Below are positions 5,382-6,043 of a stretch of DNA of 40,172 nt, in pieces; the stretch's first letter is position 1, and each line of letters starts with the position of its first letter. The notes below the pieces were generated by a model. That model worked only from the letters and a program-made list of their open reading frames with translations. It made no database searches and was not told the origin of the DNA. The DNA lies in assembly GCA_005798335.1 (NCBI GenBank), contig SYJV01000274.1, positions 1-40,172 of the forward strand, in the 5' to 3' direction. Both the position numbers and the translations under genes were made by a program. The stretch is from Planctomycetaceae bacterium (lineage in GTDB: Bacteria; Planctomycetota; Planctomycetia; Pirellulales; Pirellulaceae).

Positions 5382-5675
5382 ATGTCCGATGTCACCCGTA
5401 TCCTCTCGCAAATCGAATCCGGCGTTCCGCTGGCGGCGGAGAAACTCTTGCCGTTGGTTTACGACGAACTACGGAAAGTTGCGGCGGTGATGATGGCTAA
5501 CGAGAAGCCGGGGCAGACGCTGCAAGCGACGGCTTTGGTGCATGAAGCCTACGTACGGTTGGTCGATCAGAAGCATGTTCAAAACTGGAACGGCAAAAAA
5601 CACTTTTTTGGTGCAGCGGCAGAAGCCATGCGTCGAATACTCGTCGAGCGCGCTAGGGAAAAAAAGGCAGTTTGA
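5382..5675 (+). CDS. ECF sigma factor, planctomycete Sigma70_ECF type: N-terminal (sigma-2) part
   Basis: The 97 residues match the N-terminal half of the sigma-70 ECF family common in planctomycetes: VTRILSQIESG, AAEKLLPLVYDELRKVAA, EKPGQTLQATALVHEAYVRLVD, then HFFGAAAEAMRRILVERAREK. This is the sigma-2 region that binds core RNA polymerase and the -10 element. Family members are near 185-195 residues in one frame; here a TGA at 5673 ends the frame just after sigma-2. The missing sigma-4 half continues in the -1 frame (5672-6043). The junction lies on the heptamer A AAA AAG at 5660-5666, so the gene is either programmed to shift or has suffered a one-base loss in a run of seven A. No ribosome site is evident before the ATG. 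Confidence 0.85.
   Translation: MSDVTRILSQIESGVPLAAEKLLPLVYDELRKVAAVMMANEKPGQTLQATALVHEAYVRLVDQKHVQNWNGKKHFFGAAAEAMRRILVERAREKKAV
5660..5666 (+). other. A_AAA_AAG slippery heptamer at the frame junction of the sigma factor gene
   Basis: In the zero frame the codons are GAA AAA AAG GCA GTT TGA, so the heptamer A AAA AAG sits in exactly the X XXY YYZ phase known from the dnaX -1 frameshift. A -1 slip gives K K G S L K H G G, which restores the family sequence (R-K-x-LKHGG). Seven A in a row are also a mutation hot spot. No well-spaced upstream stimulatory Shine-Dalgarno and no obvious downstream pseudoknot were found, so a simple mutation remains equally possible. Confidence 0.6.
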
Positions 5676-6043
5676 AACACGGAGGTGATCGGAAACGAGT
5701 TGATGCAGTTGTTTTTGAGTCGGAATCGTCCGAATCCTGTATTGATTTGTTAGCTCTCGACGACGCTCTGACTCAACTCAAGCGCAGTGACCCGCGTCGG
5801 GCCCGGCTAGTTGAATTGCGTTTCTTTGCAGGGCTTAGGACCGGCGCAGAAATAAATGTCCGTATTGTCGCCTTTCGCTCCGCGAAAGGACGCACTTTCG
5901 CGGAGCGAAAGGCAACACTTATTTCTGCGCCGATCCTTAGCAACGAGCAAGCCGCTTTGGTGCTCGGGATTTCTACTTCAACTGCCGACAATGACTGGGC
6001 CTACGCTAAAACCTGGTTCCGAATTCGAATGGGAGCGGAATGA
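5672..6043 (+). CDS. ECF sigma factor: C-terminal (sigma-4) part in the -1 frame, carrying an in-frame inserted palindromic element
   Basis: This frame continues the sigma factor: LKHGGDRKRVD, then a linker, DLLALDDALTQLKRSDPRRARLVELRFFAGL, then the sigma-4 helix-turn-helix SNEQAALVLGISTSTADNDWAYAKTWF that would contact the -35 element. Between FFAGL and SNEQ lie 34 extra residues not expected in the family. They are encoded by a 97-bp inverted-repeat element plus a duplicated CTTAG. The insertion length is 102 bases and contains no stop, so the frame survives. It disrupts the joint between two sigma-4 helices and probably impairs promoter binding. The usual kinase partner gene is not next door; only a cyclase remnant follows. 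Confidence 0.75.
   Translation: MKHGGDRKRVDAVVFESESSESCIDLLALDDALTQLKRSDPRRARLVELRFFAGLRTGAEINVRIVAFRSAKGRTFAERKATLISAPILSNEQAALVLGISTSTADNDWAYAKTWFRIRMGAE
5834..5940. mobile_element. 97-bp MITE-like palindromic element with CTTAG target duplication inside the sigma factor gene
   Basis: The body spans 5839-5935 and is flanked by the direct repeat CTTAG (5834-5838 and 5936-5940). The ends are 21-base inverted repeats with 19 matches, of the form GA(C/T)CGGCGCAGAAATAA. Inside lies a second perfect inverted pair of 19 bases (5870-5888 and 5895-5913), and each of those arms is itself nearly palindromic (CTTTCGC TCC GCGAAAG), so a clover-like fold is possible. There is no coding capacity for a transposase, so it would be moved in trans. 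The uninterrupted sigma-4 sequence on both sides shows the exact insertion point. Confidence 0.85.

Follow-up and report, generated by a model that had tools for sequence, protein, structure and literature searches.

A 99-bp palindromic element interrupts an ECF sigma factor gene in the stretch of DNA analysed here (40,172 nucleotides of Planctomycetaceae bacterium, GenBank assembly GCA_005798335.1, contig SYJV01000274.1; hereafter the window). Most probably (at about 0.82) it is a non-autonomous, composite miniature inverted-repeat transposable element (MITE), in which terminal repeats of one type, termed shell A, are moved in trans by a transposase and surround two inverted REP-like hairpins, and which was inserted recently into the sigma gene. 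The evidence comes from the borders of the element, its copies in its own genome and in a second genome (G448), the exchange of shells and cores, and the reading frames of the interrupted genes.

Structure and borders of the element

The features of the region are as follows.

5382-5675, plus strand: ORF1, N-terminal part of an ECF sigma factor (Sig-70_X6 type); matches TIGR02999 positions 1-95 of 183 (E 9e-32) and PF07638 (E 7.8e-34)
5672-6043, plus strand: ORF2, C-terminal part of the same sigma factor in another frame; matches TIGR02999 from position 97, region 4 being split by the element
5838-5936, no strand: mobile palindromic element, shell type A, 99 bp, as delimited by alignment of the own-genome copies
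5835-5837, no strand: target duplication, left copy, TTA; its length is taken from own-genome and G448 copies
5937-5939, no strand: target duplication, right copy, TTA
5838-5859, plus strand: left terminal inverted repeat, GGACCGGCGCAGAAATAAATGT
5915-5936, minus strand: right terminal inverted repeat
5867-5889, plus strand: core REP-like unit 1, GTCG foot and hairpin CCTTTCGC-TCC-GCGAAAGG
5895-5916, minus strand: core REP-like unit 2, inverted; foot GTTGC (GTCGC in most other aligned own-genome copies)

Terminal inverted repeats with nested inner hairpins had been described in the initial annotation, and they exceed what is expected by chance. The outer palindrome arms (5833-5859/5915-5941) are 27 nt long and 89% complementary; the inner arms (5866-5888/5895-5917) are 23 nt long and 96% complementary. 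A single strand of the element folds at -44 kcal/mol, compared to -15.0 +/- 2.7 for shuffled sequences (z -10.7), and none of 200 shuffles folded as well. Being short (99 bp), with inverted arms and without a transposase gene, the window element has the features of a MITE. When own-genome copies were aligned with their flanks, the common part of shell A was GGAYCGG...CCGATCC, with small changes, and the same triplet was found on either side. The terminus with its target reads TWA followed by GGAYCGGCGCAGAAATAA; the end can also be written as TWA followed by a GGAYCGGCGCAG-like sequence.

A body of 97 bases flanked by a 5-bp duplication, CTTAG, had been proposed. The body is 99 bp (5838-5936) and the duplication is 3 bp, TTA; the flanking 5-mers disagree in the own genome, for example in C360 and C542. 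A 5-bp duplication was also rejected in G448, where the two sides match over 5 bp in none of 112 copies. CTTAG mimics a longer duplication because the preferred target is YTWAR around the duplicated TTA. The total gain of 102 bp (99-bp element and TTA), equal to 34 codons, was given correctly.

Copies in the own genome

Ten full copies of 93-100% identity, the window copy counted, lie in differing flanks in the own genome (8.46 Mb, 558 contigs). Three further copies (C406, C400 and C172) form a diverged subfamily of 82-86% identity, and two half copies are found at contig ends (C431 and C309). Twelve copies were given to the parsing script, which parsed 11; C62 was unparsed and C99 was left out. 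The flanking triplets were equal in all 11 parsed copies and were TTA or TAA. The shell A copies were 99 bp (n=6), 100 bp (n=2) or 101 bp (n=3) in length. The diverged subfamily shares both its shell subtype and its core spacer. As shell and core spacer vary together in these three copies, the composite moves as a unit. The dispersed full and diverged copies and their short target duplication support the earlier proposal of a mobile class. The prediction that copies would carry different 5-bp flanking duplications held in that many copies occur in different flanks, but the duplication is the 3-bp TTA or TAA.

Two contigs, C99 (L011:1-153) and C366 (L362:108-260), share the same flank over 19 bp on the left and 32 bp on the right and diverge beyond it. 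At the same CTTAG the shared flank is split in both contigs, once by a shell A element and once by a shell B/C type element; two different elements thus seem to have used one target inside another repeat.

Copies in a second genome

The second genome, G448 (CAMAVB MAG, 8.2 Mb; loci L110-L188 in part and L265-L324), bears the name Candidatus Kuenenia stuttgartiensis in its record, a label that may be incorrect in view of the genome size, the element copies (about 195) and a PSCyt-type gene in L298. Matches to the shell A end at up to one mismatch numbered 198 and 192 on the two strands, with none in the reversed control, from which roughly 195 element copies are estimated. The 121 loci examined (795 kb) contained 112 distinct elements of nearly full length; 104 of them are 99 bp long, although they were defined as BLAST matches over nearly the whole 99-bp query, a method that favours this length. 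The flanks were equal over 3 bp in 86 of the 112 (TTA in 44, TAA in 38), compared to 38.9 in shuffled pairs, and over 4 bp in only one. The comparison over 2 bp with the triplets out of register gave 3, against 21.8 shuffled. An earlier pattern count had given 51/59 elements at 99 bp and 41/59 with matching triplets, 6 further starts being unparsed. The interior differs from that of the window element, and 134 of its 136 clusters lie within 60 bp of a shell A end, in loci that were themselves chosen by shell A. The G448 interior is hardly ever free-standing, and its description as REP cargo is therefore drawn from its shape. The G448 loci also have other repeats in common, of about 200-280 bp.

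Shell A in other genomes

An 18-mer of the shell A end was scanned in genome contigs and found in at least 110 stretches, a number that includes chance matches in unrelated bacteria. Among the matches listed, the end occurs in MAGs labelled Planctomycetota with differing interiors: a GTCG core in JANXQG (G449; two copies of 100 bp), GTGGGGCACG...CGTGCCCCAC hairpins in CAMAVB (G448), and a GTAGCTGGGGCG... interior in a 99-bp element of SXKJ (L141). A single shell A end is visible in CAMAYU (L155). These elements show, at the level of sequence, an exchange of interiors between species within shell A. The exact 19-mer end was present in only one of 392 genomes sampled from the phylum, the window's own, indicating a patchy distribution. 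Among viral contigs, two stretches had end-like matches but lacked an element next to these, and six contigs had a core half-site match.

The core as a module in several shells

The core half-site CTTTCGCTCCGCGAAAG has 87 + 75 = 162 matches in the own genome at up to one mismatch, and none in the reversed control. The own-genome core consists of a GTCG foot and a CTTTCGC-TCC-GCGAAAG stem; it is found with and without a shell, mostly as inverted pairs and in a few cases singly. REPs and BIMEs are likewise short hairpins on a tetranucleotide foot that are scattered alone or in inverted pairs; the foot of the present core is GTCG, in place of the GTAG or CGTC of the described REP superfamilies.

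The flanks of core sites were read in 61 stretches (the window, L011-L030 and L325-L364), drawn from the first 100 of the 162 matches. Shells were classified by end patterns, with mismatches allowed, within 62 bp, in a procedure run without a control; among the matches listed, 78 core sites were assigned in this way. Two recognised ends were found for shell A in 13, A2 in 14, B in 9 and D in 3, one recognised end in 17 and none in 22. Shell A2 ends are GCATCGGGC and AGCATCGGGCGAA.., the shell B end is TACTACAGCGCG and the shell D end is GGCTYTGTTTCTAAA. The A2 ends resemble those of shell A, and A2 may be a diverged relative of A; the shells that clearly differ are then B and D. The search with the shell B end gave 22 matches (2 in the control) and 15 elements, and that with the shell D end 9 matches (none in the control) and 5 elements. 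The same core type lay behind the end in 15/15 and 5/5 of these elements, respectively; some have no recognisable second end. A pattern selected eight A2 elements; each measures 99 bp and has the same triplet, TTA or TAA, on its two sides (8/8). On the assumption of a TA duplication, which the pattern used fixes, the shell D element measures 100 bp (gain 102). The shell B element is 90 bp with YTAG, and its gain of 94 is not a multiple of three. A 107-bp query matched 20 of 60 genomes (the own genome and 59 relatives), other families of the order included; among the matches listed, it is mostly the core alone that matches.

Two individual elements deserve description. In a shell B copy (L383; G000:C477:20113-20181) the two REP units are collapsed to a single hairpin, as if by recombination between them. 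A shell A2 element in C156 (L344:3693-7136) lies at the 5' end of a 1147-codon frame, and its end, CGATGCTAAG, may provide the ATG directly ahead of a signal-peptide-like stretch.

The interrupted sigma factor gene

ORF1 and ORF2 match the N- and C-terminal parts of TIGR02999/PF07638 separately. Of 15 genomes of the genus that were searched, the own one among them, 13 had matches to ORF2; these matches are members of a large family and are referred to as homologues. In the C-terminal alignment, the 34 residues at the insertion point are absent from 10/10 of the homologue loci aligned; an uninterrupted orthologue in a relative was the support that the initial annotation had called for. The alignment also bears out its statement that the sigma sequence flanking the insert is intact on either side. 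The parts corresponding to ORF1 and ORF2 are in one frame in all ten loci; in the window they occupy two frames. An A7 run lies in ORF1, at 5659-5665. The gene therefore has either two lesions or a single lesion plus an assembly error, and the frame change could be such an error.

The frame is open through the insert, as had been stated, but only within ORF2; that the gene is split over two frames had been missed. Since the frameshift lies upstream of the insert, no continuous frame carries the 34 residues in a whole sigma factor. The window gene was probably inactive already. Neither a 34-residue peptide grafted into the DNA-binding domain of a working sigma factor nor a MITE made into coding sequence is supported for this gene.

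Reading frames in other copies

Elements of both species have in common an open frame on each strand, coding for R[TI]GAEI or RTETEI ... IS..[VI]L. The window copy has an extra open frame on the minus strand. With at least one open frame per strand in the element (R[TI]GAEI...ISAPxL), a reading frame can stay open after insertion. The elements are rarer than expected by chance in frames of at least 200 codons (33% of 51 copies, compared to 79% of 500 random positions), and most copies examined in the own genome and G448 lie outside long frames.

The state of the interrupted frames was determined in G448 for the 99-bp copies, the host frame being defined by joining the flanks. Eight pairs of thresholds (frame length in aa/codons from each end) were used, each counted in two ways. 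The expected open fraction was 0.474 (47%), obtained in a simulation that placed real copies into long frames at randomly chosen TWA sites. Because the thresholds were tried after the list of G448 copies had been seen, the p values below are indicative. Stop-to-stop frames open through the element were counted as follows.

150/30: 18/29, p 0.08
200/30 and 200/40: 14/18, p 0.009
250/30 and 250/40: 14/17, p 0.0035
300/30 and 300/40: 12/14, p 0.004
400/40: 12/13, p 0.001

Counted from the first ATG or GTG, the fractions were 17/25, 13/16, 12/15, 13/15, 12/14, 12/13, 11/12 and 11/12 (p 0.03 to 0.001). This excess suggests that copies which break the frame are selected against in G448. Insertion in frame into protein genes, the property that characterizes the Rickettsia palindromic elements, is found in G448; the window shows it only inside ORF2, in a gene that is frameshifted. 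G448 provides independent support for the idea that elements of this class can be read in frame within functional genes.

Fourteen open G448 hosts were compared with Pfam. Ten gave matches at E <=0.001, L289 only below the curated cut-offs, and no Pfam match was present in the other four (L125, L126, L150 and L120). Four broken frames (L174, L313, L148 and L188) lie outside this set. The element is N-terminal of the matched domains in L297, L298, L314, L321 and L311, where it may precede the true start, and it is also ahead of the Pfam match in L300. Three hosts are clearly internal. In L135, an Lhr-type helicase, the element lies at about 1055-1088, between matched stretches 306-1041 and 1113-1494. 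The corresponding stretches are nearly adjacent in chain 7lhl_A (334-1051 and 1057-1438), which shows that the linker of L135 has extra residues beyond the 34 of the element. In L305 the element is at about residue 157, inside a CHAT match (92-397), and in L130 it starts at about residue 142, between the best-matched AAA stretches.

These hosts bear on a second explanation of the window copy, a functional in-frame graft like that of the Rickettsia elements, in which a still functional sigma factor with 34 additional residues is produced, slippage perhaps joining ORF1 and ORF2. The open ORF2, the intact sigma sequence on either side, the 14 of 17 long G448 frames that are open and the three clearly internal hosts agree with it. 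It is nevertheless improbable in view of the two frames of the window gene, their single counterpart in every homologue locus, and the position of most copies outside long frames.

Search for the transposase

In the explanation that we prefer, a non-autonomous composite MITE, a transposase acting in trans would join the shell A ends into CTWAG-like sites and produce the 3-bp TWA duplication; a DDE transposase with IS5/PIF-like target choice is the presumed enzyme. The core would consist of two inverted REP-like hairpins within the shell A terminal inverted repeats. Shell and core would move jointly at present, the modules having been exchanged over time. The window copy would be a recent insertion into the ECF sigma gene, although the order of events there is deduced. 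Several observations stand against this explanation, among them the rarity of free-standing cores in G448, the resemblance of A2 to A and the possible assembly error mentioned above. A full-length transposase with the ends of the element, which the initial annotation had expected to identify the driver, turned up neither in the own genome nor in those G448 stretches that were read. Further, the 99-bp length is not universal, as it holds for 6 of 11 own shell A copies, the rest being 100 or 101 bp.

In the own genome, a draft assembly, the search at up to two mismatches for a transposase inside shell ends gave lone ends besides the small elements. The end pattern had 45 + 43 = 88 matches, compared to 36 + 35 = 71 in the reversed control, so that most matches at two mismatches are background. 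No element with shell ends and a transposase was recognised in the G448 stretches read, which are part of a draft genome. Far-apart inverted end pairs were found in 4 of 61 G448 loci (296-2028 bp) and in 3 of 60 further loci (1383-2028 bp). Each of these seven pairs includes a complete or partial small element, and no transposase-like product was seen in the frames of two of them.

PF01609 transposases of the own genome and G448 were rejected as the driver, since none of their 17 loci is bounded by shell ends (PF13359, PF13586 and PF13340 were outside this search). Weak end-like matches with 3-4 mismatches occur in 6 of the 17 loci; the two in L398 bracket 99 bp and represent a diverged small copy. 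An IS630-family element (369-1497 in L032:369-1515, G000:C80) has 30-bp perfect ends starting with TA and adjoins a lone shell A end, which extends to 1515; its other side is unlike the shell. IS630 was rejected as the driver because the element has its own, different ends.

A third explanation is that a REP-associated (Y1) tyrosine transposase moves the whole element, the terminal repeats being part of its substrate (TIRtron/TIRYT-like) and not DDE ends. Y1 enzymes are not known to produce a consistent 3-bp target duplication such as is seen here, which speaks against this explanation. Candidate genes exist, as the own genome has 17 Y1_Tnp matches, but within the 1.7-3.3 kb read around each, none of the 17 loci is a RAYT-like gene flanked by the core, and one core-like half lies ~1.3 kb from one gene. 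A decayed Y1 transposase gene (L075:1332-1800, G000:C216) has a shell-like end, TTAGCACCGGCGCAAACATA, ~200 bp upstream. This gene is a possible lead to the mover, although the end is single and has 3 mismatches in 17. TIR-flanked Y1 tyrosine transposases are described in PMC3733652. On balance, movement by a Y1 enzyme is unlikely.

Finally, that the elements are static palindromes, ancient regulatory or structural repeats (attenuators, recombination sites) resembling a transposon, would fit their strong hairpins and their position mostly outside long frames, but can hardly be reconciled with target duplications, near-identical copies in unrelated flanks and interrupted gene homology.

Relation to known palindromic elements

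The composite MITE reading has consequences beyond the window. REP pairs can ride in MITEs, as the same pair is found inside several transposon shells that carry target duplications, and this is a concrete answer to how REPs spread without a matching transposase nearby. Within genes, an element that adds 34 codons and is open on each strand seems to persist mainly at places where the frame remains open; it offers a natural case, outside Rickettsia, in which peptide insertion into proteins can be tested. A broader proposal is put forward tentatively, with the odds rather against it: that Planctomycetota possess a modular class of mobile palindromes whose transposon shells and REP-pair cores are reshuffled and whose size is kept close to 99 + 3 bp, so that each adds 34 codons open on both strands. 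If true, a system of in-frame peptide insertion would have evolved a second time, independently of the Rickettsia elements, with mobility renewed by shell exchange.

IS5-family elements (IS1031-like) and PIF/Harbinger transposons produce 3-bp TNA/TWA duplications at CTTAG-like targets, as seen here; the likeness concerns target choice only, because no transposase was found. A parent element is known for many MITEs, and the term is also used without one. The bacterial MITEs named in PMC3733652 (such as Nezha, NEMIS and RUP) likewise have terminal inverted repeats, many copies and no coding capacity; the REP-like core distinguishes the present elements from them as described there. Rickettsia palindromic elements, given as about 150 bp in PMC10969869, are also palindromes inserted in frame in genes with a conserved encoded peptide. 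Compared with that description, the present elements have clear terminal repeats, TWA duplications and a gain of 34 codons in either orientation, and most copies examined lie outside long frames. REPs inside genes are also reported in PMC3733652.

The closest precedents are REP dimers regularly placed in longer palindromes, A. variabilis GTAG-15 and H. neapolitanus CGTC-1 (PMC3733652), in which a repeated, longer conserved palindrome encloses a REP pair as it does here. In the present case, however, one core occurs in several shells and the shell holds other hairpins in other genomes; the foot is GTCG, neither GTAG nor CGTC; and a 3-bp duplication, of which section 7 of PMC3733652 makes no mention, marks the composite as the moving unit. 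Among the papers listed in searches of the open-licence PMC literature, judged mostly by title and opening of the abstract, none was recognised as a description of these elements in Planctomycetota. REP dimers in palindromes and in-frame palindromic elements were thus already described. The present elements add to this: one genome has several shells around a single core, a single shell has several interiors in different genomes, the duplication shows that it is the composite which moves, and the most frequent length is 99 + 3 bp.
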